IMG/VR virus record: IMGVR_UViG_3300020169_000090
Coordinates: 1 to 27,090 of that record
DNA: 27,090 nucleotides
Source: a virus
Direction: 5' to 3' (one strand)
Shown piece by piece: positions 4,419-25,231 of this stretch; position 1 is the stretch's first letter, and every line of letters begins with the position of its first letter. The position numbers were made by a program, and so were the translations under genes. Below the pieces are notes generated by a model, which was not told where the DNA came from, searched no databases, and saw only the letters and a list, made by a program, of their open reading frames with translations.

Positions 4419-4602
4419 CTTGGTTGGTTGGATCCATTCTAGCCAGCTCTACAACTTCAGCTAACCCCCGCCAAGCTGACTCCTCTTCTGCAACCTCTAC
4501 CATGTCCTCAATAATTCTGTCCAACTCTACGAAATCCGCTTGCGTTAGAACGTCTTTATCTAAGATATTTAAAGCCTCGTCATAAAGTGAAAACTCATCC
4601 AT
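4411..4602 (-). CDS. Very acidic small protein overlapping the MuF gene; candidate immunity/antitoxin
   Basis: A 63-residue protein with about 18 Asp/Glu and only 4 Lys/Arg, probably all helical (MDEFSLYDEALNILDKDVL at the start). Its ATG lies inside the last codons of the MuF-metallopeptidase gene (8-bp overlap), so it is translationally coupled to it. Small acidic proteins encoded directly downstream of toxin-domain genes are often immunity proteins, and MuF proteins carry polymorphic toxin domains in some phages; this assignment is inference from position and charge only. It could instead be a minor head-assembly protein. Confidence 0.6.
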   Translation of the reverse strand: MDEFSLYDEALNILDKDVLTQADFVELDRIIEDMVEVAEEESAWRGLAEVVELARMDPTNQVS

Positions 4603-6229
4603 CGTTCAATATATCCTCTATCAACTTCAAAAATTCAGGATCTACAAGTTCTTTTCGTCTCATGGCCCAAACTGAGAAGTTTTCAGCAAACCACTCCACA
4701 GACTTTGTATCTCCGTATTTAGTTGGGGATTTTCTGTTCCTGTGAGGCGCTAATCTTAGAACCTCTTTCTCCCATTTGCCCATTATATACTGTTCAGCTT
4801 TTTCTATCCCCTTTATTTGGTGGACATGATGGCCAAATTCGTGATACATAATGCTTCTTATTCTATCGCTACCTTCTGACCAATACTCCTCTGATCCATT
4901 AGGCTTTTTTAGATTTCCGTCTCCTTGCTTCCAAGTTGACGCTGGCTTGCTATTTTTGTGTATCAAGTTATTTTTAAAGTATTCGGTATTGATACCCATA
5001 ACCCCGTCACCCATATCCGCGCCTGATCGACTGCCCTTTCTTATCTTTGTGTAGCCTCTTATTGGAGGGATTTTGAAAAGATTTGCGAGAATGGAAAGCT
5101 CTCTGTCTACCTGCTCCATGACAATAAAAGCGCCTTCTACATCTTTGAAGTGTTTGCTTACGGTTTCCGAGGTGTACTGAGTGATTTTTCTCCCGTTGTA
5201 CCTTGACTTTAGCTGTGCAACGCCATAGGCGTCAGTATTTGATGTCCTTAGCCGATCACTCATACCTTTTCTGGCATTTTTAAAGCTAAGTTTTCCTGCT
5301 ACCATTTGAGCACGAATCTCTGAGTCATTTAATCCTATAGGCAAGCCGTCTGGCCCCGCCCTAACTTCCCTCTCTAAGATAGGATCATCGCCCCTGCTTG
5401 GGGCTTCGGTATCTTCTATGTCGTCTTCTTGGTCAACATAGAGGATTACGCATCTACAATTGATAACGTTCTTAGCCCCGCCCTTTGGATCTCCCGAATA
5501 AGCCATCCTAGAGCCGTCCGGCATAAAGAAGTCTTCGTCCATTTGCGCCGTCTCACCATTCATGGCGCTGTGGGTTGATCTGGTGCGGCTGTCAGCCGTT
5601 GATACCCACTGCTTAACCATTTGCACCCCAAAAGAGTCTGAAACCCTCCTGTGGTACTCGTCATTGGCAAAAGACTGTGCGCTATGGGTCTCAGTTCTTG
5701 CTATAACCGCTGCTCTTTTGCGGTTTATAGGTGAGAAGGTTTTTGTCAGTGACCTAGCTATCTGGTCAAGGGTTTGGTCTTCTCCACGAAGGAATGACAC
5801 CTCTGACAGAATAGACTCTCCGTAAGATCTGGATATTCCAGCAAACATGGGTTGCCTGCCCTTAAAGTAGATATTAACAGACCTTTCAAACTCATCGCTT
5901 CTGCCAAAGCTAAAGCCCTCGCTCTTTTGAGCTAGCTTGGAGTACCTGTCGTTGTTGTAGGCGTAAACTGAGTCAAAGGTTCTACGAACCTGCGCCTTTA
6001 GTACAGCGTCTAGCTCTTCGCTTATCATGCGAGTTATTGAGCTGTAACTGGGATCTTCGCCTTGCCTTACTTGGCTAGCTACAACGCGGACAGCTTTATT
6101 GAATACACCGTCAACCTTCTTCTGGAACCCTTTATCCAAGCGGTTCCTTAGCTTTGTTTGGTCTCTAGCGTACCGCCTAGCTGATACTTTTCCTTGCCGG
6201 AATTGGTATATCTGCTTTAGAGCTAGCAT
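4595..6229 (-). CDS. MuF/SPP1 gp7-like head morphogenesis protein fused to a zinc metallopeptidase domain
   Basis: A 544-residue two-part protein. Residues about 15-265 are a minor head (Phage_Mu_F) region, with the conserved IARTETHSAQ (177-185), WVSTADSRTRSTHSAMNGE (208-226) and NCRCVI (257-262). Such proteins sit in the head near the portal and may be ejected with DNA. After a linker (270-290), the C-terminal part contains HEFGHH (463-468), a zincin HExxH motif, with WFAENFS (513-519) downstream; E516 could be the third ligand, as in gluzincins. MuF fusions to toxin-like enzymatic domains are known from temperate phages, so this may be an injected effector. A role in head maturation is the alternative. 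It starts 2 bp after the portal stop. Confidence 0.88.
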   Translation of the reverse strand: MLALKQIYQFRQGKVSARRYARDQTKLRNRLDKGFQKKVDGVFNKAVRVVASQVRQGEDPSYSSITRMISEELDAVLKAQVRRTFDSVYAYNNDRYSKLAQKSEGFSFGRSDEFERSVNIYFKGRQPMFAGISRSYGESILSEVSFLRGEDQTLDQIARSLTKTFSPINRKRAAVIARTETHSAQSFANDEYHRRVSDSFGVQMVKQWVSTADSRTRSTHSAMNGETAQMDEDFFMPDGSRMAYSGDPKGGAKNVINCRCVILYVDQEDDIEDTEAPSRGDDPILEREVRAGPDGLPIGLNDSEIRAQMVAGKLSFKNARKGMSDRLRTSNTDAYGVAQLKSRYNGRKITQYTSETVSKHFKDVEGAFIVMEQVDRELSILANLFKIPPIRGYTKIRKGSRSGADMGDGVMGINTEYFKNNLIHKNSKPASTWKQGDGNLKKPNGSEEYWSEGSDRIRSIMYHEFGHHVHQIKGIEKAEQYIMGKWEKEVLRLAPHRNRKSPTKYGDTKSVEWFAENFSVWAMRRKELVDPEFLKLIEDILNDG

Positions 6230-9536: not shown

Positions 9537-9993
9537 CGGCTGCTACCTTTGAGATTTCTTGTGCTTGGCCTAGGGCTAACTTGCCTATCTTTTGGGCATT
9601 GGCTGTTACCTGCGACAACTGCCCTAGCTCCCCAGAGTCCATTCCAAACAAATTAGGGTTTGATCGTTCTAGCTCTATTGCCTTTTGAAGCTTTCTTCCA
9701 ACCGTTCCGAGCATTGCTTGGGCTATCTGAATGCAGCTATCGTCAAGCCTTTTGGCTTCAGATACCATTTTGTCCATTCTTTCTGCGTCAATACGCTGCT
9801 GCAACTCTGTTTGGTATCGGTTTTTCTGTTCTTGCCAACCCTCAGACGAGGAGTAGTTATACAGGGTTGATTTAGCTAAGTCATGTCGTTTCGCCAACGC
9901 CTCAAGGGTAGGGAATACTCGTGTACCTTCCTCATTAACATACCCATGAACAAATTCGTCCCTTACTTTCAGCTTTACTTCATCCGCTAACAT
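9442..9993 (-). CDS. terS: Terminase small subunit
   Basis: A 183-residue DNA-recognition subunit of the packaging complex. The N-terminus has a helix-turn-helix (PTLEALAKRHDLAKSTLYNY, about residues 28-47) followed by WQEQKNRYQTELQQRID and a helical oligomerisation region. This layout is typical of phage small terminases and the gene sits immediately before terL. It starts at ATG 9993, preceded by GGAGAGG, overlapping the upstream ParB-like gene by 14 bp, which ties packaging to the auxiliary operon. The packaging site it recognises cannot be read from the sequence. Confidence 0.88.
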   Translation of the reverse strand: MLADEVKLKVRDEFVHGYVNEEGTRVFPTLEALAKRHDLAKSTLYNYSSSEGWQEQKNRYQTELQQRIDAERMDKMVSEAKRLDDSCIQIAQAMLGTVGRKLQKAIELERSNPNLFGMDSGELGQLSQVTANAQKIGKLALGQAQEISKVAADVSNPEAFHAIMEQLDELAATRAQKFDSSIH

Positions 9994-10684
9994 TAGCCTC
10001 TCCGCTAGTCGTATTTCCAGAATTCTCTACATCTTGAGCCTTTTTTAAGGCTATCTGATGCTTTGTTGTCCATGCTTGACTGTACTCTGCATCGCTAAAT
10101 AGCTTAGAGAAGCCGGTTATATGTTTCAATCTCAATAACTCGTCAGGCTCCATTCCTAGATGCTGGCAGACTTGTGCGTCACTCCATCCGTTATCAAGCA
10201 TAGAGAAAACCATACTAGACATCCCGTCAACCGAGTGCTTACCCCTAGCTCTATTGTGCCTAACTGTAGCCGCCATACGTTCGTTTATACTCTTCTGTAT
10301 CACAACGATAGGCAACCTCCCGTGGTTTCGGTCTTTTATGTCCTGATTGTTCTTGCAAGTAAAATACCTGTGGAACCCGTCAACTATGACGTACTTGTTT
10401 ATATCCTCATCCCAGATAGTCACAACGGGCTGAGTATAGCCGTCATGCAGTATTGATGTGTAAAGGAGGGACATTTCCTGCCCCGCCACTGAGTTAGGGT
10501 TGTAATCATTAGCTTGGACCATGTTTATATCAACCCAATGTATCCTGTCAACAGGCTGGCTGTTCAAGGGGCTTAACTCAAAAGTTGCTTGCCTTAAATC
10601 TTCAATGAACTCTATAAAGTCATCTTCGCTCATTTCCTCTTTGGCAGAGAGGAGCAATTCCTTCGCAGTTTCAATGCCTGTCAT
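9980..10684 (-). CDS. IbrB-like ParB-nuclease-fold protein
   Basis: A 234-residue protein with a ParB/Srx N-terminal domain: NMVQANDYNPNSVAG (54-68), SILHDGYTQPVVTI (77-90) and IVDGFHRY (100-107), where ParB proteins have a GEHR/GFHR motif that binds nucleotide. The next part includes NERMAATVRHNRARGKH and a helical domain (SDAQVCQHLGMEPDELLRL) resembling a ParB helix-turn-helix. Next to the PAPS-reductase-like gene it reproduces the IbrA-IbrB pairing known from E. coli prophage-linked loci regulating immunoglobulin-binding proteins. The molecular reaction of such pairs is not settled to my knowledge; regulation or DNA modification are possibilities. ATGA overlap with the upstream gene. Confidence 0.82.
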   Translation of the reverse strand: MTGIETAKELLLSAKEEMSEDDFIEFIEDLRQATFELSPLNSQPVDRIHWVDINMVQANDYNPNSVAGQEMSLLYTSILHDGYTQPVVTIWDEDINKYVIVDGFHRYFTCKNNQDIKDRNHGRLPIVVIQKSINERMAATVRHNRARGKHSVDGMSSMVFSMLDNGWSDAQVCQHLGMEPDELLRLKHITGFSKLFSDAEYSQAWTTKHQIALKKAQDVENSGNTTSGEANVSG

Positions 10685-11856
10685 AAGTATTCCTCTTTAA
10701 TGAACTTGAGAGTATTTGGGTCTCTAGATCTAGCGTTGAGTTTGCCTTTCTTCCACTCCCTATAAGTTATCAATGGGGCGCTGTTCAGAAAGTTGGCTAT
10801 CTTGACGAAATCAACGTCATTAACCAGTATGGATTTAATCTGCGCCCTATGAACTACAGAAGGATCTCTCATGTCCTTGTACAGCTCATCCATTTTTCGC
10901 CATTCTTTGTGGAACTTGTCTCGCCATTCCTGCTTGCTGATTAGGTTGTTTGTTAAATAATCCCTGTACTCTTGCCAATCTGTGAACATATACGGCAGAT
11001 TGGTAACCGTCATCAACTCGTTCTTTTTTATATGGCTGGTTTGATTTATCCCTTTAAGCCGCTTTGATAGCGCCTCCCATGTCTCTCTCTCTATTTCTTG
11101 CAGGAAGAACAGGCTGTGGACCGCTGTTTCGTGCATTAAGCTTGAAACCCTCATTCTTAGAGGCGGAATACCGTACCTATAGAGCTCATCATAAATCTTG
11201 CTATACGCCCATCCGTGAGAATGTATAGATTTCCATACGTCCTTTAAGTTCCAATCCCATATAGGGTAGAAAGTGTAGTGTCCTTTCGGCTCGTCAAGCT
11301 TCTTCCCCCATGTGATCTCTTTGTAAGTCTGCCCCGTAGTCAGTCCGGCAAGTCTTGTAGGGCTTTCTTCTGCTCTAACGCCTGAAACATAGCAAGCGGG
11401 ACTATCTGGGTAGTGGTATTTTAAGAACGCCTTGAATATAGAATTGCCTCCAGAAGTCCAAACATCCACCCCGTAGACGTTATCTTTTTTGCTTATAGCC
11501 TCTTGCGGGCGCATCCATTCCTCGCCATCTCCCCAAGCGTTCAGAAAGGGTTGGTCCATAGATAATGAATTTGGCATTCTCATCGGCACCTGAAGCCAGT
11601 AAGGATCTACCCTTGGATCCGCCATGAGCTTCCTCATGTAATCAATGACCAAAGAATACTCTGCCTCTTGATCAACAAACATTACAGGGATCGGAGTAAG
11701 CCCCCTTTTTTCCGCGATCATCAAAGTCAATTCCAGCACGACCGTACTGTCTTTGCCCCCAGACGTTGAGACGACAACATTCTCAAATTCATCAAATAGT
11801 CGGTTTATCCGTTGGATAGCAAGATCAAAGACGTTATCTTTTAAAAAAATCTTCAC
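10681..11856 (-). CDS. IbrA-like PAPS reductase/ATP-pyrophosphatase family protein
   Basis: A 391-residue protein with the ATP PP-loop VVVSTSGGKDSTVVLEL (28-44), the signature of the PAPS-reductase/N-type ATP pyrophosphatase superfamily, which adenylates a substrate or handles sulfate/sulfur chemistry. The middle has CYVSGVRAEESPTRLAGL and FYPIWDWNLKDVWKSI, both typical of this family. The C-terminal half (SSLMHETAVHSLFFLQEIE onward) fits the DUF3440-type region of IbrA. DndC of DNA phosphorothioation belongs to the same superfamily, but no DndA/B/D/E partners are here. It starts with GTG overlapping the SET-gene stop (GTGA) and is coupled to the IbrB-like gene. Confidence 0.85.
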   Translation of the reverse strand: MKIFLKDNVFDLAIQRINRLFDEFENVVVSTSGGKDSTVVLELTLMIAEKRGLTPIPVMFVDQEAEYSLVIDYMRKLMADPRVDPYWLQVPMRMPNSLSMDQPFLNAWGDGEEWMRPQEAISKKDNVYGVDVWTSGGNSIFKAFLKYHYPDSPACYVSGVRAEESPTRLAGLTTGQTYKEITWGKKLDEPKGHYTFYPIWDWNLKDVWKSIHSHGWAYSKIYDELYRYGIPPLRMRVSSLMHETAVHSLFFLQEIERETWEALSKRLKGINQTSHIKKNELMTVTNLPYMFTDWQEYRDYLTNNLISKQEWRDKFHKEWRKMDELYKDMRDPSVVHRAQIKSILVNDVDFVKIANFLNSAPLITYREWKKGKLNARSRDPNTLKFIKEEYL

Positions 11857-12563
11857 TTTATTGAAGCTTTGTTTATAAGGATCTGATCACTTGCTGGCTT
11901 GTCTCGCTCCATGACCCAGTACTTCCATTCCCCTAGATACAGGTAATTAAATTCATAGCCCCCAGTTTCTTTGAAAGTCCCTTTTGTTGAATTGGTTTGT
12001 ATGTACTCGCAGCACCACACGAAGTCCTCTGATGACGGCCATTCCCTTCCGCGTGTATAGAAATGAGGTATATGCTTTAAGGTCTTGGCAAATCGCCAGT
12101 TTGAGCTTAATAGCAGTCTTGATATTCGTTGTTCGTTAGTTTCTGATGCGTAAGATCCTTCAATCAAAGCGTTTTCACAGCTCCCGCATGTGCAGATAAA
12201 GGATTTGTATAAAACTGACTCAGTTTCATTGTAGTCCATTGTCAAAGCATCGCCAGACTGGATGTCTCTTGTGGCGATAAAAGACCGCTCGCTCATGTTT
12301 ACCGTCAAATTAGGGCGGCATGAATGTAGCAGGAAGCCCATAACCCAAGGGTCGTGGATATGATGGCCGTATCCATGCTCAAGAGAGTGCTGAGTCACTT
12401 TTGGCAAAGATACGCCAGAGCAAATGAATAAAAGCTCACCTTTGCTGAATGCTCTTTTTGCGTACAAGCCTCTCCCTTTATCCAAGGAATCTAACACCTC
12501 AAAATCGTCAGATGTTGGCTCCATCCAGTAAGGAGGTATGAAGTCTGGGTAGATTCTTTTCAC
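11853..12563 (-). CDS. SET-domain methyltransferase with post-SET cysteine motif
   Basis: A 236-residue protein carrying the main SET signatures in order: KGRGLYAKRAFSKGELL (29-45), LLHSCRPNLTVN (78-89; the NHSCxPN motif), GDALTMDYNETE (104-115; GEELTxDY) and a post-SET zinc cluster FICTCGSCE (C124, C126, C129). SET enzymes transfer methyl groups from AdoMet to protein lysines. The retained catalytic and zinc residues suggest an active enzyme. Residues 140-236 match nothing I know. It starts with GTG in a GTGA overlap with the SpeD-like gene. Target unknown; phage coat, host chromatin-like or translation proteins are all speculation. Confidence 0.85.
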   Translation of the reverse strand: MKRIYPDFIPPYWMEPTSDDFEVLDSLDKGRGLYAKRAFSKGELLFICSGVSLPKVTQHSLEHGYGHHIHDPWVMGFLLHSCRPNLTVNMSERSFIATRDIQSGDALTMDYNETESVLYKSFICTCGSCENALIEGSYASETNEQRISRLLLSSNWRFAKTLKHIPHFYTRGREWPSSEDFVWCCEYIQTNSTKGTFKETGGYEFNYLYLGEWKYWVMERDKPASDQILINKASIK

Positions 12564-12943
12564 TCTCGGTATACCACGCTTATGTCAATTAAGGTTCCTC
12601 TTCCGCCAAGGTGATCAAGCAGGCACTCTGTAGCGGCATTTTCGTCGTAGTCTTTGCAGGAGAATATATCCGCGTAAAGGTCTTTGGCCCCGTCATTCGT
12701 ATGAAAAACAATTGCGCTAGTTTCTATTAGCTGAACCGCTGAAATTCCGATCTCTATACCGTCACCGAACCTCTCTACCATAGGATCTCCAAACCTAACC
12801 ATCTCAATGCAGTCGCAAAGCGCAATAATGCAACTTTTTATTGCCTCCTTATCCTTCACCAAGATGCTGCAATTTTGCATTCTTATCATTGAATGCTTGC
12901 CGTAATGAGGTCTTCCCTCATGGATCACTCTTTTGTAAGTCAT
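12560..12943 (-). CDS. speD: AdoMet decarboxylase (SpeD) family protein
   Basis: A 127-residue homologue of the prokaryotic pyruvoyl-dependent AdoMet decarboxylases, close to the usual 110-130. The match covers HYGKHSMIRMQNC (13-25), GISAVQLIETSAIVFHT (66-82) and ADIFSCKDYD (91-100). Aligned to known SpeD proteins, S76 is the residue converted to pyruvoyl after self-cleavage, H81 the processing histidine and C96 the catalytic cysteine; their spacing (5 and 15 residues) is exact. The residue before S76 is Thr rather than Glu. No spermidine synthase is present. Some phage-borne SpeD relatives are reported to decarboxylate other amino acids, so the substrate is uncertain. Starts 1 bp after the ParB-like stop. 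Confidence 0.85.
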   Translation of the reverse strand: MTYKRVIHEGRPHYGKHSMIRMQNCSILVKDKEAIKSCIIALCDCIEMVRFGDPMVERFGDGIEIGISAVQLIETSAIVFHTNDGAKDLYADIFSCKDYDENAATECLLDHLGGRGTLIDISVVYRE

Positions 12944-12944
12944 T

Positions 12945-13544
12945 TTAATGGCCTGTTACAACAAATGACTCATAACAGTTGGGGCATAGAACTTCAGTGC
13001 CTCCATCTGATTTTTCTTTAGATAACCCATTTATCTGACCGTCTAGCTTTGCTTGCGCGTTTCCTACGTCAATATCCGTAAAATTTCCGGAATTATAAGT
13101 TGGGTTGACGTTAGGCTCAAAATCGTCAAACGAGAAATTGTCGTCCATCCCCAGCAAAGATAAGTCATAACCCGAGTCAGACAGGTTTCTTAGCTCTGAG
13201 AAGTAAAGGCTATCGTCCCACTGACTGCCCTCTCCCAGCTTGTTATCAGCTATTACATAAGCCTTTTTCTGCTCTTCTGTCCAACCTGATACCGATATAC
13301 AAGGAACCTCTTCCATCTCAAGCCTTTGAGCGGCGTACAATCGACCATGGCCAGCTATAACCATTCCGTTCTCATCTATAAGGATAGGCATAGTCCACCC
13401 CCATTGACGAATACTATTTGCTAGCTGCTCTATTTGAGATTCTGGGTGAGTGTTAGGGTTTCTGTCATAAGGAATAAGCTCTGAAACCTTTTTTTTCTCT
13501 AAGCCAGAATCCTGCTTTCCTGTAAGCGATGAAATAAAAGACAA
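12945..13544 (-). CDS. ParB-like nuclease-domain protein with C-terminal CxxC
   Basis: A 199-residue protein opening the auxiliary operon. The ParB/Srx-fold domain (17-105) has SELIPYDRNPNTHPESQIEQ, SIRQWGWTMPILIDENG and VIAGHGRLYAAQRL (62-75). In many phages this domain precedes a DNA methyltransferase in one protein; here the methylase part is absent and an acidic tail ends in LCPNCYESF (C187, C190), a half zinc-ribbon. The start is TTG at 13544, supported by GGGAG six bases upstream; no ATG fits. It may cleave or sense DNA or hydrolyse nucleotide. A minus-strand promoter probably lies in 13545-13650, but I cannot place it securely. Confidence 0.82.
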   Translation of the reverse strand: MSFISSLTGKQDSGLEKKKVSELIPYDRNPNTHPESQIEQLANSIRQWGWTMPILIDENGMVIAGHGRLYAAQRLEMEEVPCISVSGWTEEQKKAYVIADNKLGEGSQWDDSLYFSELRNLSDSGYDLSLLGMDDNFSFDDFEPNVNPTYNSGNFTDIDVGNAQAKLDGQINGLSKEKSDGGTEVLCPNCYESFVVTGH

Positions 13545-13649
13545 TCTGCTCTCCCGTGTAATCTAAATGTTCATGCTTCTAATTTTGGCAAAAATGACCC
13601 AAGAAGGCAATTATTTTGCACAATAAGGGTATTATTTTTAATATAAGGG

Positions 13650-13697
13650 TTGTAATTACAAACAAGCTCTGTATAATAACATGCAACAACAACGCAA
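13650..13697 (+). promoter_or_regulatory. Early-type promoter P2 with leader box and -35 palindrome
   Basis: TTGTAA (13650-13655), 16 bp, TATAAT (13672-13677), then CAACGCAA (13690-13697). GGG precedes the -35. A perfect 12-bp palindrome TTGTAATTACAA (13650-13661) coincides with the -35 and may be an operator. Transcription would begin near 13684, which excludes the upstream in-frame start at 13616 for the amidoligase and supports the ATG at 13712. Confidence 0.75.
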
Positions 13698-13711: not shown

Positions 13712-14722
13712 ATGACAAACCCAGTATACACAAACCGAAAATTTGGAATTGAAGTTGAGTTCGTTGGGGCCAATTTGGGCCTAGTAGCTGAAGCAATTAA
13801 TAACGCCGGAGTGCCTTGCCAGTTTGAGCGTTACAACCACTTCACGCGGGACTACTGGAAAATAACCACTGACGCTAGCCTTGCAAGTGCTGGTGGCTAT
13901 GCTGGTGAGTTGGTTAGCCCGATTTTAGAAGGGGCTGAAGGGGTGGCTGAGTTAGAAAAGGTTTTGCAGGCTTTGAACGCGATAGACGGCGTAACCATAA
14001 ACAGAAGCTGCGGATTGCATGTACACCTAGATAGCCGTGACATGAGCATGAGAGAGATTGCCAGAGTTTTTACAAGATACTCTAAATACGAAGAACAAAT
14101 TGACCTTTGTATGCCAAGAAGCCGACGAGGTGAACCTAGATGGTGCAGAAGCATTACTGCTAGCAACATAGTAGAGACTGTGACCAACGCATCCACTAAG
14201 CAGCAGGGCGGCAGAGCACTGGGCCGATACCACAAAGTGAACCTCTCCAACATTAACGACCGAGGCAGCATTGAGTTTAGGCACCACAGCGGCACTACAG
14301 AGTTCCACAAAATATCAAACTGGTTGAGCTTTTTGATGCAATTTGTAGAGACCAGCATTCAATTGGCCAACGCAGTTGAGCCTAGGACTGCCAACAGATG
14401 GTTCTCTAAGCCTAGGGCTTTAATTGAGGCAAACGGGTACGAGATCCGGCACATTAGATTTAGCGAGAACTGGAAAATTACCTTTGAGGGAAGAGAGGTA
14501 ATGAGGCTTTCAAATGAAGATTTTGAGAACCTGTACCCAGAAGGATCAAGCCAAAAGAATGGAGAATTTAATGCTTGGTCCTTAATAAGAGCCTTTGAAA
14601 CCCAAGATTTGGACCTAGATGAATTTCCTACTGCTACCACTACAACTGACACAGGCTGGCTGATGGGAATTTGCCAGACGGTAGCGAATTACTTGGCAGA
14701 ACGAACACTGGAGTTAAATTAA
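13712..14722 (+). CDS. Amidoligase-family enzyme (glutamine-synthetase-like COOH-NH2 ligase)
   Basis: A 336-residue putative amidoligase (Amidoligase_2 family), an ATP-dependent enzyme forming amide or peptide bonds on an unknown substrate. The hallmarks are FGIEVEF (11-17), WKITTDASL (49-57) followed by GELVSPIL (65-72), SCGLHVHLD (99-107) and GSIEFRHH (185-192). These give the acidic metal and ATP ligands of the glutamine-synthetase-like fold (E14, E16, H103, H105, E188, R190). The ATG at 13712 is chosen because the frame upstream contains the promoter. It is followed after 1 bp by a GGCT-like gene, a pairing previously noted for amidoligases. The C-terminal third (200-336) is not assigned. 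Confidence 0.85.
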   Translation: MTNPVYTNRKFGIEVEFVGANLGLVAEAINNAGVPCQFERYNHFTRDYWKITTDASLASAGGYAGELVSPILEGAEGVAELEKVLQALNAIDGVTINRSCGLHVHLDSRDMSMREIARVFTRYSKYEEQIDLCMPRSRRGEPRWCRSITASNIVETVTNASTKQQGGRALGRYHKVNLSNINDRGSIEFRHHSGTTEFHKISNWLSFLMQFVETSIQLANAVEPRTANRWFSKPRALIEANGYEIRHIRFSENWKITFEGREVMRLSNEDFENLYPEGSSQKNGEFNAWSLIRAFETQDLDLDEFPTATTTTDTGWLMGICQTVANYLAERTLELN

Positions 14723-14723
14723 G

Positions 14724-15146
14724 ATGATAGAGCAATACTTGTACGGAGCCTACGGGTCAAACTTGAGCCTAAGCCAGATGGCGCGTAGATGCCCCGATGC
14801 ACAGCCAGTAGGAAATTTGATTTTAAGCGGCTTCTCGTTGGTTTTCAGGGGTGTTGCTGACATAGAACCCAACGACCAAGGTAAGCTGGCGATCGGGCTG
14901 TGGCGCATTACTGAAGGCTGCGAGGAAGCCCTTGATATGTACGAAGGCTTCCCCAACCTTTACAGCAAGATTTACGAAAGGACTACTGAGGGTTGCGTCA
15001 TGATGTATAAGATGAACAGCCATTTAGTTAGACCCCCTTCTTACGGGTACTTAGCTGGAATATCTGGAGGCTATGAAGACTTTGACCTACCCCGCACGCT
15101 CTTGACTGACGCGGTGCAACATAGCTGGGCTAACGAAGGATCTTGA
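14724..15146 (+). CDS. Gamma-glutamylcyclotransferase-like (AIG2/GGCT fold) protein
   Basis: A 140-residue protein with the GGCT signature YGAYGSNLSLSQM (7-19) near the N-terminus, CPDAQPVG (23-30), ADIEPN and the acidic catalytic position E74 in DMYEGFPNLYSK. GGCT-fold enzymes release 5-oxoproline from gamma-glutamyl amines or peptides. Directly downstream of the amidoligase, it would edit, cleave or recycle the amide formed by that enzyme; the specific product is unknown. Translation is probably coupled (1-bp gap). The gene ends 109 bp before a convergent minus-strand gene, with a structured element between them. Confidence 0.85.
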   Translation: MIEQYLYGAYGSNLSLSQMARRCPDAQPVGNLILSGFSLVFRGVADIEPNDQGKLAIGLWRITEGCEEALDMYEGFPNLYSKIYERTTEGCVMMYKMNSHLVRPPSYGYLAGISGGYEDFDLPRTLLTDAVQHSWANEGS

Positions 15147-15254: not shown

Positions 15255-15599
15255 CTATCTTACATTCCTTAAAGAAACTTGCCTAGATCTTTCAGTCTCC
15301 CACTTGGCTTCCGCTAGACGTAGGATTCTTTTTTTGGTCTCAGCAGTGATACCCATTTTTTGAACCTCTAGATACCTTGGCTGCCAGTCAGGGTGAGCTT
15401 TTACTTTAGCGTCCGCCATGACCGCTGACATCTTTGCGCCCATCATTGCAGTCTTTGTCGCTGACTCCCAAGATTTGAGAAAAGACTCTTTCTCCGCGTA
15501 GAGTAGAGACGCTTTTTGCCATTCCTCAATAGCTCTCTCCCAATTGTTTATACATTCGTCTAACTCGTCCCTGTGATAAGGGACACTAACTTCACTCAT
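15255..15599 (-). CDS. Helical hypothetical protein at end of replication operon (114 aa)
   Basis: A 114-residue, probably all-helical protein rich in Glu, Lys, Ala and Trp (NNWERAIEEWQKASLLYAEK). The C-terminus, EAKWETERSRQVSLRNVR, resembles tails I remember from environmental-phage hypothetical proteins. Encoded last in the cro-replication operon, it overlaps the nuclease gene by 8 bp, suggesting a partner or replication-associated role. No catalytic motif is visible. Confidence 0.65.
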   Translation of the reverse strand: MSEVSVPYHRDELDECINNWERAIEEWQKASLLYAEKESFLKSWESATKTAMMGAKMSAVMADAKVKAHPDWQPRYLEVQKMGITAETKKRILRLAEAKWETERSRQVSLRNVR

Positions 15600-15915
15600 T
15601 GATCAACTCCTTAATTTGGTCAATTGCGTTGCCGTTTATCTGCGCGGTTGTATATCTAAGGACTTTCCAGCCCATGAGTACCGCTGTGTTGTATTTTATT
15701 AAGTCGTTGGTGTAACCGCCGCCCCTAGTGTGCCGTCCTCCTGAGAAGACGCCTCCTTCAACCTCAATAGCGATTTTCTTTAGGGGCATAGCCACGATGA
15801 AATCAAACCGCCATCTTCTGACTGGGTGAAATCTATATTCCTTGGAGAACGGGATCTTGGCCTCTGTCAATAAGGCTTCCAAAAGCATCTCACCTTGGCT
15901 TCTCTTAGCGGCCAT
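15592..15915 (-). CDS. Small PD-(D/E)xK-type endonuclease
   Basis: A 107-residue protein starting at ATG 15915 after CAGGA, overlapping the helicase 3' end by 11 bp; the longer open frame to 16146 lies entirely inside the helicase gene and is rejected. The core is E26-x-R28-FHPVRRWRFDFIVA (to 42) then IAIEVEGG (48-55), matching compact phage nucleases of the VSR/DUF559-like group. D38 and E51/E53 are the likely metal ligands. GGRHTRGGGYTNDLIKYN and a final WKVLRYT are also typical. Such nucleases near replication genes are often proposed to resolve branched DNA or act as RusA/Endo VII substitutes; the role here is inference. Confidence 0.8.
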   Translation of the reverse strand: MAAKRSQGEMLLEALLTEAKIPFSKEYRFHPVRRWRFDFIVAMPLKKIAIEVEGGVFSGGRHTRGGGYTNDLIKYNTAVLMGWKVLRYTTAQINGNAIDQIKELINE

Positions 15916-17596
15916 TATTAATCCTGCTTGCTTGAATGGTGGGCGGCTCAAACCTTCTTGTGCTTGGGTTAAACCAGAATGTCGCTTCGCCAATCTGGCC
16001 ATACAGACCTTGCTCTCTGATCTTTCTGGTAATAACTCTGATGGTGTTGTTCTGGAAGTCTCTGTGTACCGTGATAACTGCATCGGCTTGGTTGTGCCAG
16101 TGAGCTGCGCCGGATATATCATAGGCTGTCGGTGGGGCGTATCCACCCCCGTCTTGCTTCTGCATCTTGGTTGGGTGAGCTACCACCCATATCGCTATAT
16201 CGTGCATCTTTGCGAACCTCTTGCACTGACTAATAAAATCTCTAATAGCCTCATCTTCCCTCTGTCCTCCTCTGCGGCTCCCATCTATCTCGTTGTATGG
16301 GTCAATCACCAGTCCATTACAACCAAACTTCTGTATGCTGCCCTTTGCTATGTCTAAGATTCTTTGGCTGTTCGGGATATGCTCCCGCGTCTCAATAAAG
16401 TAAAAATGCTGGTGTATCCAATTTATCGCAGACTTTAACTCGGCTTCTGTCATCCTGCCGTTAAGGCCGACATCAAACGGCTTGCCAGTCACCATCACCG
16501 CCAGACGCCGCAAGTGCATCTTGGTAGAGTGCTCTGGAGAAAACATAGCAAATTTCCATCCGTGGTTCCTCGCTAGCTGTATCAGGCATTGATCCAAAAA
16601 AGTTGATTTGCCGTGGTTTGGGATTCCCGTCCAGACATGGAAGGTGCCTTTCTGTACTTTGTAGATCTTATCTAGATCCTCATACCCAATGGATATGGGC
16701 TTGTCATAATTGCCGTGGTAAAGATCTAGTACGTCATCGGCGTACTTAGCTGCCGTATAAAGTCCGTCAACCGGATAAGGCTTTGCTGTCCCTATAAGCT
16801 CTTTTAGCGCCAAGCTGCCATGCTTCATTAGAACATCGTTCGCGTCTTTGCAATCTTCTGGCGGCTTAACGTACCAGCAGATATCTTTCCCGTACCTATG
16901 GACAAGCTCTTTTCTTAGGTTGTCCCCAGCGCCATCCGCATCGCAAAATAAAATCAGCCGCTTACATCTCAGTGGGTGGGTCTGTAGGCAGGAAAATCTT
17001 TTATCGTCTTCTTTGAAGGCCGTCTTTGGCGGCGCTCCGTCTGGTATCGTGGTGACATGCTTTATGCCAGCTTCGTATATTGCAAGGCAATCCATCTCCC
17101 CTTCTACAAAAACAACCTCATCTGAATCCTTCACTTCATCGTAATTGTAAAGAGACTTCTTTCCGTTCTTGGTTTGCCTAAATTCTTTGTCAGCCGTCCT
17201 GTGTTTTATGTTGTCGCACTTTCCGTTATGCCCGTTATAAGGGAATGAGATCCAAGTGTTGTCTTCAGTAAAGATATTAAACGCTTCGTAGGTTGGTCTA
17301 GATATGCCTCTGCCCGCAAAGTAATCGTCTAAAAATTTGTTTGGGGCTGAAAGGTAAGCCACTGGCTCCGGCGTCTTTCTTCTGGTCGGCTTAAATCCAC
17401 TATCAACCACCCCGCCTGAAAACCCGCAATGATGGCAGTTAAAAAGTATGGTCCCAACCTCTACGGTTACGGACAAAGGATTGTCTCTCATGTTGTGCGC
17501 TGGCTGGCACTGTGGGCATTTTGTTTTCTGACCCCCTAGCTCTTGGTTTTTAATTCTTATGGCATAATCGTTGAACAATTTATCCTGCAAGGTCAT
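15905..17596 (-). CDS. Bifunctional primase-helicase (T7 gp4-like)
   Basis: A 563-residue replicative enzyme. N-terminal zinc-binding module: CPQC (27-30) and CHHC (54-57). TOPRIM primase: VFVEGEMDCLAI (162-172) and LFCDADGAGD (216-225). DnaB-like RecA-fold helicase: GTFHVWTGIPNHGKSTFLDQ (Walker A GIPNHGKS, 324-331), GLVIDPYNE (428-436) as Walker B, and VVAHPTKM as the sensor. Order and length match T7 gp4 and related phage proteins, so the phage brings its own fork helicase and primase. It starts at ATG 17596 with GGAGG and overlaps the initiator-like gene by 17 bp. Confidence 0.95.
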   Translation of the reverse strand: MTLQDKLFNDYAIRIKNQELGGQKTKCPQCQPAHNMRDNPLSVTVEVGTILFNCHHCGFSGGVVDSGFKPTRRKTPEPVAYLSAPNKFLDDYFAGRGISRPTYEAFNIFTEDNTWISFPYNGHNGKCDNIKHRTADKEFRQTKNGKKSLYNYDEVKDSDEVVFVEGEMDCLAIYEAGIKHVTTIPDGAPPKTAFKEDDKRFSCLQTHPLRCKRLILFCDADGAGDNLRKELVHRYGKDICWYVKPPEDCKDANDVLMKHGSLALKELIGTAKPYPVDGLYTAAKYADDVLDLYHGNYDKPISIGYEDLDKIYKVQKGTFHVWTGIPNHGKSTFLDQCLIQLARNHGWKFAMFSPEHSTKMHLRRLAVMVTGKPFDVGLNGRMTEAELKSAINWIHQHFYFIETREHIPNSQRILDIAKGSIQKFGCNGLVIDPYNEIDGSRRGGQREDEAIRDFISQCKRFAKMHDIAIWVVAHPTKMQKQDGGGYAPPTAYDISGAAHWHNQADAVITVHRDFQNNTIRVITRKIREQGLYGQIGEATFWFNPSTRRFEPPTIQASRINNGR

Positions 17597-17977: not shown

Positions 17978-18184
17978 TTATTGCAAGCCATAAAAGTCAT
18001 TCGGTGTAACATCTCCGCCTGTCACTTTGTAGATTGCCGTCATTTCTGGGCCTCGGGGTATTCTTCTGCCGCTGCACCACTTGACCACCGCGTGAATAGA
18101 GAAGTCATACCCTAGCGCATTAGACTCCTCTAAGAATTTTTGCTGGGTCATCTGATTCTGCTTTAACCAAGTTGCTAATTTCAT
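17978..18184 (-). CDS. Cro-like HTH repressor
   Basis: A 68-residue helix-turn-helix protein of Cro size. MTQQKFLEESNALGYDFSIH is followed by AVVKWCSGRRIPRGPEM, an HTH similar to YdaS/Cro-type phage regulators (recognition helix near 30-40), and the tail VTGGDVTPNDFYGL is typical of this family. It is transcribed divergently from the recombination operon; its own promoter contains a dyad centred on the -10, so autorepression is likely. No CI-type partner with a protease domain occurs in the window. AGGAG lies upstream of ATG 18184. Confidence 0.82.
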   Translation of the reverse strand: MKLATWLKQNQMTQQKFLEESNALGYDFSIHAVVKWCSGRRIPRGPEMTAIYKVTGGDVTPNDFYGLQ

Positions 18185-19058: not shown

Positions 19059-19748
19059 ATGAGTAACGAGAAATTAATATCCGCGCTAATGAACGCGCAA
19101 TTGGACATGCAGCACGCAAAAGCGGATGGCAGAAATCCGATGTTTAAGAATGAATACGCCACTTATGAGCAAGTCGTTGATACGGTAAAACCGATACTCC
19201 TAGATAACAGTATTTATTTCCAGCAAAAAAGCCATCTAAACGATAGAGGCGCTTGTGTAGAGACTGTATTCTACGGTCACGGCGGAATGCTAGAAACTGG
19301 CCCTGTGCTAGTCGTGGCAGATAAAGTGACCCCTCAAGGCTTTGGAAGCGCAATGACGTACGCAAAACGGTACTCATTGAGCATGGCTTGCGCGGTAGGT
19401 TGCGAACCTGATGATGATGCCGAAAAAGCTGAAGCGTCATACAGGGCGAAAAAGCCAGATCTTAGACCGGTAAAGCCTAGTCAGGATGTAAAAGCGGCCC
19501 CATTTCACAGTGAATCAATGAAGTACCAGTTGCTCAAGGGTTCCAAGATGCTAGTCGGAAAGAATGACCCAGAAGGGTTTTTAAAGGCTTGCAGGGATTT
19601 GTTAGCAGACCCGTCAAGCAAGCAATGCCAAGAGATATATAATTCAAGTAAACAAGAGATAGCGAGCGCATTGAGCGCGTCTTCAGGAAAGACGGAAGAT
19701 TCTTTTAAGCTTTTGATAGGGCTTTATGGGGGTAACAATGCATCATAA
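19059..19748 (+). CDS. erf: ERF-family single-strand annealing protein
   Basis: A 229-residue recombinase of the ERF family. NAQLDMQHAKADGRNPMFKN (12-31), YATYEQVVDTVKPIL (33-47) and GFGSAMTYAKRYSLSMACAVG (94-114) are the diagnostic segments; residues after 120 are a variable linker and C-terminal domain. These proteins anneal complementary single strands and support recombination and genome circularisation. It starts at ATG 19059 after GGAGG, 1 bp after the exonuclease stop. An upstream in-frame ATG at 18996 lies inside the exonuclease gene and is rejected. Confidence 0.9.
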   Translation: MSNEKLISALMNAQLDMQHAKADGRNPMFKNEYATYEQVVDTVKPILLDNSIYFQQKSHLNDRGACVETVFYGHGGMLETGPVLVVADKVTPQGFGSAMTYAKRYSLSMACAVGCEPDDDAEKAEASYRAKKPDLRPVKPSQDVKAAPFHSESMKYQLLKGSKMLVGKNDPEGFLKACRDLLADPSSKQCQEIYNSSKQEIASALSASSGKTEDSFKLLIGLYGGNNAS

Positions 19749-20691: not shown

Positions 20692-20739
20692 TTGACTTTA
20701 CGTCTCAATTGTTTATTATAACAAACATACACAACGCAA
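20692..20739 (+). promoter_or_regulatory. Early-type promoter P4 with leader box
   Basis: TTGACT (20692-20697), 16 bp, TATTAT (20714-20719), CAACGCAA (20732-20739). A near-palindrome GTTTATTATAACAAAC (20711-20726) covers the -10. AACCC/GGGTT (20679-20683 and 20689-20693) forms a small inverted repeat at the -35. The sequence closely matches P1 from the -10 to the leader box. Confidence 0.78.
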
Positions 20740-21109: not shown

Positions 21110-21583
21110 ATGATGCAAGGTAGCAAAGGCCCAAGATTGAAGTTCGTTAGAGATCTTATACAGAAAAAAGAATCAGCTATAAAGGCTAGCGATGAGCTGC
21201 ATGATATTGTGCGGATAGAGAATAACGTCAGCCCTAGGCTGAGGACTCAATTGAAGCTTCTTAAAAAACAGGAGAAACGTATTTTGGAAAAAGAAATTGA
21301 GAGATCAAAGAAGGCTAAAATCTTAGACCCTGAAACAAAAGTGTTATCAGAAAAGCCGCCAACCCTGAAAGAAGCGCAAGATTTTGTCGGAGGATATGTG
21401 CAAATGATAAGTTTAGGGAAAGGCCGCCAAATGATAGTTAATGAAGAAGCTTATATTCTACCTGTTGAATTAAAGCACAACCCAGAGGCGACTGAGATTG
21501 CCAAAAGAGGCAGCGCCGTTATAGGGTCAAGAGGGATTCTGGGTAATGCCTTGGTATTAACCGGAGCCGCGTTGTGGAAATAG
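21110..21583 (+). CDS. Hypothetical protein with DUF3846-like C-terminal domain (157 aa)
   Basis: The N-terminal 80 residues are very basic, helical and coiled-coil-like (KLLKKQEKRILEKEIERSKK). From residue 88 a small domain has DFVGGYVQMISLGKGRQMIV, VNEEAYILPVELKHNPEATE and GILGNALVLTG, resembling DUF3846-type phage proteins (GGY...NEE...NP...GNA.V). The N-terminal basic part is not typical of that group. ATG at 21110 or 21113, GGGGG upstream. No enzyme role is indicated. Confidence 0.65.
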   Translation: MMQGSKGPRLKFVRDLIQKKESAIKASDELHDIVRIENNVSPRLRTQLKLLKKQEKRILEKEIERSKKAKILDPETKVLSEKPPTLKEAQDFVGGYVQMISLGKGRQMIVNEEAYILPVELKHNPEATEIAKRGSAVIGSRGILGNALVLTGAALWK

Positions 21584-21786
21584 GATTTATAGGGCCAAGG
21601 CATCCTCAATCTACAAGAATAAAAAAAAATGGGAGGCCAAAAACAACCGGACCCTTTAAGACCCGCGATCGTCTAGTGGAAGCTGTGCTAGAGCGTAGCG
21701 CCAAAGGTAAGAGTGCACAACATATCGCAAGGATTCTAGGCGTTAGTCAGCCGACTATAACGAAAATTATTAAGGAAAAGAAATGA
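21574..21786 (+). CDS. Small HTH protein (resolvase-type HTH, 70 aa)
   Basis: A basic protein with a C-terminal HTH, AKGKSAQHIARILGVSQPTI followed by TKIIKEKK, similar to the HTH that ends Hin-type recombinases. GRPKT before it resembles an AT-hook-like minor-groove arm. No catalytic recombinase domain is present, so it is a DNA-binding regulator candidate. The only in-frame start is GTG at 21574, overlapping the preceding stop by 10 bp; the last codons overlap the next gene as ATGA. Confidence 0.65.
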   Translation: MEIGFIGPRHPQSTRIKKNGRPKTTGPFKTRDRLVEAVLERSAKGKSAQHIARILGVSQPTITKIIKEKK

Positions 21787-24799: not shown

Positions 24800-24986
24800 A
24801 CTGGAATACCACTTCTGCGAAAGAGATGAAGGGTGGGCAGAATATGATAACAGAGGGATTTATCTTACGTTTGTCTGCGATGTATGCGTGGAAGCCAAGC
24901 TATCCAAATACAGGAAAGACGTTCTCTGCGATGCGTTGAATGCAGTAAAATATTGGGCAGATGAGCCTATTGAGGAAGAATTATGA
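24789..24986 (+). CDS. CxxC-containing phage protein (65 aa)
   Basis: Starts at ATG 24789 after AAGGAGG. It contains YDNRGIYLTFVCDVCVEAKL and SKYRKDVL, a pattern I know from environmental-phage hypothetical proteins with one CxxC pair (here C30/C33-type spacing), probably a metal site. Its stop overlaps the next start by 4 bp. Confidence 0.7.
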   Translation: MSRELEYHFCERDEGWAEYDNRGIYLTFVCDVCVEAKLSKYRKDVLCDALNAVKYWADEPIEEEL

Positions 24987-25231
24987 AAGGGTCTGATTTA
25001 AAAAGTTTACGGACAAGGCTCGGATTGAGTCAAGCTGAAGTTGCAAGAATGCTTGGCTACTTCTCTGCGGGAGAGCCTAATCGTTCTCAAATCTCTAGAT
25101 ACGAGAATAACTACCAAAAAATTAATGGCAGACTAAAAGATGCCATTATTGCCAACTTTAGCTGGGAGGCAGAGAAAAGGCTCCCTGATCCAGATGAAAT
25201 GAAAAATGATCTCAAGTCCTTTAAGTTGTGA
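24983..25231 (+). CDS. XRE-family HTH protein (82 aa)
   Basis: An HTH of the Cro/CI XRE type: LKSLRTRLGLSQAEVARMLG (6-25) with a second half NRSQISRYENNYQKI (33-47). An insert FSAGEPN is present between the helices. The C-terminal tail is charged, with no protease domain. It is a candidate for binding the repeated promoter palindromes. Encoded late in the P5 operon. Confidence 0.75.
   Translation: MKGSDLKSLRTRLGLSQAEVARMLGYFSAGEPNRSQISRYENNYQKINGRLKDAIIANFSWEAEKRLPDPDEMKNDLKSFKL

Follow-up and report, generated by a model that had tools for sequence, protein, structure and literature searches.

What phage amidoligases make has been an open question since these enzymes were predicted, and the literature that we surveyed gives no substrate for any phage protein of the Amidoligase_2 family. 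A locus in a marine phage narrows this problem to two co-expressible enzymes, both with predicted models, encoded by adjacent genes in an IMG/VR virus record, the entire 27,090-base stretch of which is referred to below as the window. An earlier sequence-only reading had proposed that the two, an ATP-dependent COOH-NH2 ligase and a gamma-glutamyl-cyclotransferase-fold protein, form a make-and-edit pair under a dedicated early promoter. We favor, with a probability of roughly 0.4, a reading in which a gamma-glutamyl-type ligase, constant in its catalytic core but variable in the acceptors it recognizes, would be coupled to an editing or removing cyclotransferase, the two being encoded as a portable two-gene transcription unit.

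Genomic setting of the gene pair

The window has a tailed-phage gene set, with the large terminase, portal, prohead-protease and capsid-like genes on the minus strand in its left part, a primase-helicase gene at 15905-17596 (minus strand) and a plus-strand right arm from 18284. Between these lie the plus-strand genes for the amidoligase (13712-14722; ATG at 13712, TAA at 14722; 336 aa) and the gamma-glutamylcyclotransferase, GGCT (14724-15146; ATG at 14724, TGA at 15146; 140 aa). Both open reading frames are genuine, and their boundaries and the intergenic spacer of 1 nt, a single G, are as had been proposed. The pair is flanked on both sides by minus-strand genes, which include a ParB-like gene (12945-13544) upstream and a small gene (15255-15599) downstream of the GGCT gene. 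No terminator or structured RNA was detected immediately 3' of the pair (z 0.65). A known anti-phage defence system was rejected, as neither protein matched any defence model in PADLOC, and lysogenic conversion was rejected as a role because no tyrosine integrase was found in 22 records, which are possibly incomplete. Close to the pair, a phage AdoMet decarboxylase gene recognized by Pfam (12560-12943, minus strand) is shared by the window with L002 and L040/L042 alone, for which reason it was discarded as an associated supplier of polyamines. In other relatives, the same variable stretch holds methyltransferase, glucosyltransferase-like or cupin genes in its place.

The amidoligase has a predicted GS/GCS-type fold

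Profile searches bore out both proposed enzyme families. The first protein belongs to Amidoligase_2 (PF12224, 116.3 bits against a curated cut-off of 22; PHROG amidoligase, E 4e-42), and the PHROG match of the second is gamma-glutamyl cyclotransferase (E 5e-22). The amidoligase comprises a catalytic core (residues 1-217), an internal module considered below and a C-terminal helix (about 322-335). Its AlphaFold2 model, built from 66 aligned sequences, has a mean pLDDT of 94.5 and matches glutamine synthetases (GS) with a VIA Z of 13.2 and an rmsd of 3.4 A over 205 residues; the top match in Foldseek is YbdK. Judged from this model, the protein is predicted to adopt a GS/GCS-type fold with acidic metal/ATP-site residues, a histidine and an E-x-R pattern. 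It shares with YbdK and GS the fold, the paired acidic residues, the histidine and E-x-R, but differs in its inserted module and in having no detectable sequence relation to them, a sequence search of the PDB having retrieved no relatives. The GIEVEF, GLHVHLD and IEFRH motifs resemble the GS pattern, an equivalence drawn by motif rather than by superposition. Loss of catalytic residues in relatives had been put forward as a sign against the pair; none is lost, and E14, E16, E66, H103, H105, N177, E188, R190 and K200 are invariant across 66 diverse amidoligase sequences. By the Nei-Gojobori measure, the gene has a dN/dS of 0.05 between the window and L002 and of 0.05-0.50 in other pairs, the high end being reached where the internal module differs. 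The predicted activity is ATP-dependent amide-bond formation.

The second protein is a canonical GGCT

For the second protein the earlier description as GGCT-like held at the level of the fold, and its type can now be specified as canonical GGCT (human C7orf24 type) rather than AIG2/GGACT, because both fold comparison and profile searches favor human GGCT over GGACT. The AlphaFold2 model (52 aligned sequences; mean pLDDT 96.1) matches human GGCT with a VIA Z of 17.6 (rmsd 2.4, 134 residues), against 10.9 for ChaC2 and 9.5 for GGACT. In profile searches, human GGCT is recovered at E 4e-19, as opposed to E 0.05-0.45 for GGACT chains, and the AIG2/GGACT model PF06094 scores only 15.9 bits, below its cut-off of 22.8. 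Besides the fold, it shares with the human enzyme the YGSN motif (residues 10-13) and the segment around the catalytic glutamate, predicted to be E74, which aligns with the human LDEQEG segment; it differs in being a viral protein paired with an amidoligase and in showing about 27% identity. Y10, G11, N13, E74, G75 and Y80 are invariant and S12 is nearly so in the 52 GGCT sequences, and the dN/dS is about 0-0.14 among the compared pairs (Nei-Gojobori). The enzyme is predicted to release 5-oxoproline from gamma-glutamyl amino acids.

Canonical GGCTs prefer small gamma-glutamyl amino acids, a preference with which a small-molecule product agrees no less well than a macromolecular one. On this account, the pair would run a short gamma-glutamyl cycle that makes and destroys a gamma-glutamyl amino acid or amine serving as a signal, redox buffer or nutrient, or would handle a temporary protecting group. 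YbdK-like ligases are fold neighbors of the amidoligase, and the AdoMet decarboxylase encoded nearby would also suit such a cycle. We nevertheless regard it as unlikely, because a single small substrate would need no exchangeable domain and because the decarboxylase gene is near the pair in few relatives. A partial parallel comes from butirosin synthesis, where the ligase BtrJ reportedly adds a gamma-glutamate as a temporary protecting group that the cyclotransferase-fold enzyme BtrG is said to remove. BtrJ is an ATP-grasp enzyme rather than a GS-fold one and operates in an antibiotic pathway; any resemblance would therefore be one of logic only.

The amidoligase contains an exchangeable internal module

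The main reading draws its variable component from the part of the amidoligase that follows the core and precedes the C-terminal helix (residues about 218-322; 14363-14677, plus strand), where identity drops sharply in relatives. The segment that joins core and helix spans 99-130 aa in the close clade, as against 14-43 aa in many other relatives. Three pairs of loci that differ in this module (L004/L008, L012/L009 and L116/L108) show DNA identities of about 82-100% over most of the core, the C-terminal helix and the GGCT gene, and of only 30-57% across nucleotides ~660-960 of the amidoligase gene. The corresponding protein identities are 95-99% for the core (N-domain), 32-37% for the module and 96-98% for GGCT. 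L004/L009 present the reciprocal case, with a module about 92% identical and a core about 79% identical at the nucleotide level. Since the same module types recur in contigs of different metagenomes, chimeric assembly is unlikely to account for this pattern. The module of the window matches no Pfam family and is predicted by AlphaFold2 to consist, in order, of a helix, three strands and further helices.

The exchange of this segment between phages, while the core and GGCT stay constant, suggests that it is the target-recognition domain of the ligase, that is, the part that recognizes the acceptor. If so, the target would be variable and is probably macromolecular, such as a protein, a peptide or an envelope component. 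Alternatively, the variation may have nothing to do with substrate choice and stem instead from escape from recognition by the host or from relaxed constraint. On the main reading, the target should be set by residues 218-322, and the natural modules of the three pairs of loci named above allow a direct comparison of what is modified.

Some other amidoligases carry a winged-helix-like DUF3489 or HTH segment at the same position, the DUF3489 matches (E 9e-7 to 1e-5) falling just below the curated cut-off. Amidoligases with a winged-helix-like insert of the DUF3489 type, in the place of the marine clade's own module, occur in L154, L157, L158, L136 and L071. These sub-cut-off matches, along with the ParB-like, methyltransferase and glucosyltransferase-like neighbors, would be in keeping with a nucleic-acid-linked or DNA-guided protein modification, in which the module is a nucleic-acid-binding domain and the ligase acts on DNA-associated targets. 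We consider this quite improbable: the window's own module lacks a Pfam match, cargo genes of these kinds are often clustered in phages, and the neighboring PAPS-reductase-like gene is missing from most amidoligase phages beyond this lineage, being found in just 5 of 41 such records. The last count also led us to reject PAPS-reductase (IbrA-like), ParB or DNA-modification genes as obligatory partners.

Linkage, relocation and exchange of partners

The pairing is an old one. A single-sequence search yielded fifteen close viral relatives, and larger sets were assembled via alignments. Of the distinct close relatives, 26 extend 600 nt or more downstream, and in every one of these a GGCT gene lies within 150 nt of the amidoligase gene. 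When distinct viral loci were picked by GGCT alone, an amidoligase was present within 400 nt in 45 of 59 and within 1.1 kb in 52 of 59, the ligase gene coming first in 38 loci and the GGCT gene in 18. The pair also moves as a whole. In group I, which includes the window, it sits between the ParB-like gene and N17, and in group II it directly adjoins the small terminase gene; the two groups are otherwise syntenic, and in both the pair is on the strand opposite to that of its neighbors. Yet another context is seen in L024/L026. The pair is thus a portable unit, which relocates with its promoter and dyad (see below).

A contrasting interpretation would see in this linkage the co-inheritance of cargo, two useful genes gained at once but not belonging to one pathway. 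Distances among the amidoligases track the phage backbone (Spearman 0.87 with TerL) as well as they track GGCT (0.81), and many amidoligase relatives lack GGCT, both of which would be expected of cargo. The joint relocation of the pair, the occurrence of both gene orders in different phages and the repeated re-pairing on the ligase-core tree described next make this very improbable. The correlation of tree distances was itself set aside as evidence of coupling, being uninformative in that the amidoligase tracks TerL and the primase at least as well as it tracks GGCT.

Frequent separation of the two genes had been named as telling against a functional pairing. Separation was never seen in the 26 close relatives but is common in the wider Amidoligase_2 family: GGCT is not adjacent in relatives that come from Bacteroidota genomes or from Porphyromonas phages, and it is present in 4 of 23 amidoligase records. 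Where GGCT is lacking, its place beside the amidoligase is often taken by a class-II glutamine amidotransferase; this enzyme occurs in 12 of a set of 22 amidoligase records, the majority without GGCT, and within 2 kb at 17 loci lacking an adjacent GGCT. In a tree of the ligase core with 103 rows, loci labeled GGCT, amidotransferase or neither group in clusters, and the strongly supported branches require at least seven changes of the GGCT label. The count of the label neither is an upper bound, as shown by Geobacillus phage GR1, annotated with an adjacent GGCT that the model used here missed. The make-and-edit interpretation thus fits the close clade but is not general, given the Bacteroidota, Porphyromonas phage and amidotransferase loci. 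Because GGCT and the amidotransferase both break gamma-glutamyl amide bonds, their alternation offers one reason for favoring a gamma-glutamyl product. As a separate observation, L061 and L068 encode TET-associated glycosyltransferases directly 5' of a run of amidoligase, class-II amidotransferase and GGCT genes near the large terminase.

A promoter with an overlapping dyad precedes the pair

Upstream of the amidoligase gene is a promoter-like element, TTGTAA-16-TATAAT (13650-13677, plus strand), which agrees with the consensus at 10 of 12 positions. Taken alone it is weak evidence, as 10 promoter-like sites were observed in 4 kb against 5.8 expected. Its -35 hexamer is overlapped by an operator-like 18-bp dyad, GGGTTGTAATTACAAACA (13647-13664, plus strand), the inner part of which, TTGTAATTACAA, is a perfect palindrome. 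Comparable promoter hexamers with an overlapping dyad are found upstream of the pair in many relatives, and this recurrence supports the dedicated promoter that had been postulated. The best copy of the dyad is TGTTTACATTTGTAAACA. Copies that match 9 or more of the 10 outer positions and lie no more than 120 nt upstream of the pair occur in 25 of the 42 representatives of the lineage, the other 17 falling below that threshold, as compared with 11 of 600 shuffled intergenic windows. It accompanies the pair to both genomic positions, reaching the same threshold in 15 of 17 members of group II and 6 of 12 of group I. The copy in the window is among the weaker ones (8 of 10 outer positions); its weight-matrix score is 14.7 bits, at which about 0.05 hits are expected per 27 kb.

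A dyad overlapping the -35 hexamer is a putative operator of the kind bound by repressors, and the pair would then be under repression. Because the element is a palindrome within a divergent region, it could just as well act on the neighboring gene. Further copies, some of them in tandem, precede right-arm genes at 20710-20727 in the window, at 18977 in L003, at 18738 and 19785 in L088 and at 19337 and 19355 in L094. The distribution of these sites suggests that they likely constitute a phage regulon, and strong copies before right-arm genes, such as that at 20710 in the window, imply that one regulator may act on both these genes and the pair. HTH genes of the phage, candidates for encoding such a regulator, lie at 17978-18184, 21574-21786 and 24983-25231. 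The early expression claimed for the pair is at most suggested by its strand and by the matching dyad before the right-arm gene at 20710.

Comparison with known amidoligase loci

Phages that encode amidoligases, GGCT, amidotransferases and ATP-grasp enzymes have been proposed to modify the cell wall and thereby block superinfection (PMC5498523, PMC10580990), and amidoligase-GGCT neighbors have been reported in clostridial and Terrisporobacter prophages (PMC11318856, PMC11253131). The cassette of phiEco32, LUZ24 and RIO-1 (Iyer et al. 2009, as relayed in PMC5498523 and PMC11253131) resembles the window in having a GS-fold amidoligase and GGCT close together in a phage. It comprises several genes, including those for a class-II amidotransferase, an ATP-grasp enzyme and a second COOH-NH2 ligase, whereas the window has two genes only, with a putative operator-promoter of their own and an exchangeable ligase module. 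Neither the class-II glutamine amidotransferase (PF13522) nor the second COOH-NH2 ligase (PF14395) was found in the window record and 17 lineage relatives, which are possibly fragments; PF14395 was detected in two podovirus/Zobellviridae controls, in one of them below the cut-off. No Pfam match to ATP-grasp was obtained among the ten window proteins around the pair. The clostridial and Terrisporobacter prophages (Heliusvirales record PV036415) likewise have a PHROG 2443 amidoligase followed by a PHROG 2520 GGCT, but their loci often contain two amidoligases, and the ligase is shorter and lacks the ~100-aa module. The gaps in the gut-phage amidoligase/GGCT loci compared are 120-250 nt, as opposed to 1 nt in the window. 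Since neighboring phage amidoligase and GGCT genes were already reported, the pair is not a new kind of locus; the dyad promoter and the module exchange are added features, and no published description of a two-gene unit with a dyad promoter, or of module exchange, was found in the open-access literature searched.

Applied to the window, the published proposal would have the ligase put an unusual linkage on peptidoglycan peptides or precursors and GGCT trim gamma-glutamyl bonds, the altered surface then barring other phages. This role has been advanced in print for the phiEco32-type cassette, in phages that encode GGCT and an ATP-grasp enzyme besides the amidoligase and the amidotransferase (PMC5498523, PMC10580990, PMC11318856, PMC11253131), and a variable acceptor domain would suit variable surface peptides. 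We hold it to be doubtful for this lineage: as published, the role is no more than predicted, the class-II amidotransferase and phiEco32-type second COOH-NH2 ligase were absent from the records surveyed above (many of them fragments), and neither N terminus of the pair resembles a signal peptide by eye, so that any action on the wall would fall on cytoplasmic precursors.

A possible mechanism for the pair

Returning to the coupling of a gamma-glutamyl-type ligase with an editing cyclotransferase, we envisage that the GS-fold amidoligase would spend ATP on converting a carboxylate, in all likelihood that at the gamma position of glutamate, into an activated acyl-phosphate, and would join it to the amine of an acceptor that the module selects. 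Glutamate is not proven as the donor, because GS-fold ligases use several acids and amines. GGCT would take gamma-glutamyl groups off again as 5-oxoproline, and might in this way trim or reset the modification or destroy wrongly charged small amines. Both enzymes would be expressed from their own promoter, the -35 hexamer of which overlaps the putative repressor operator. A more specific and rather tentative extension is modular tagging, whereby the constant glutamyl-transferring core would be redirected by swapped recognition domains, so that a removable gamma-glutamyl tag could be placed on various targets of the host or of rival phages; GGCT would act as the eraser, and the unit would be controlled by a repressor of the phage.

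Other genes in the neighborhood

A PAPS-reductase/DUF3440 (IbrA-like) gene (9980-11856, minus strand) lies next to a ParB-like (IbrB-like) gene and is kept throughout the lineage; it shows a weak similarity to DndC in PADLOC. The window encodes a SET-domain protein (PF00856; 11853-12563, minus strand), the final ~90 aa of which match the N13 family of stand-alone proteins of ~100 aa that occupies the same place in relatives. Finally, a MuF-like head protein of 544 aa (4595-6229, minus strand) contains in its C-terminal half a YHEFGHH motif of the zincin-like HExxH type, most relatives having the N-terminal part of ~275 aa only.
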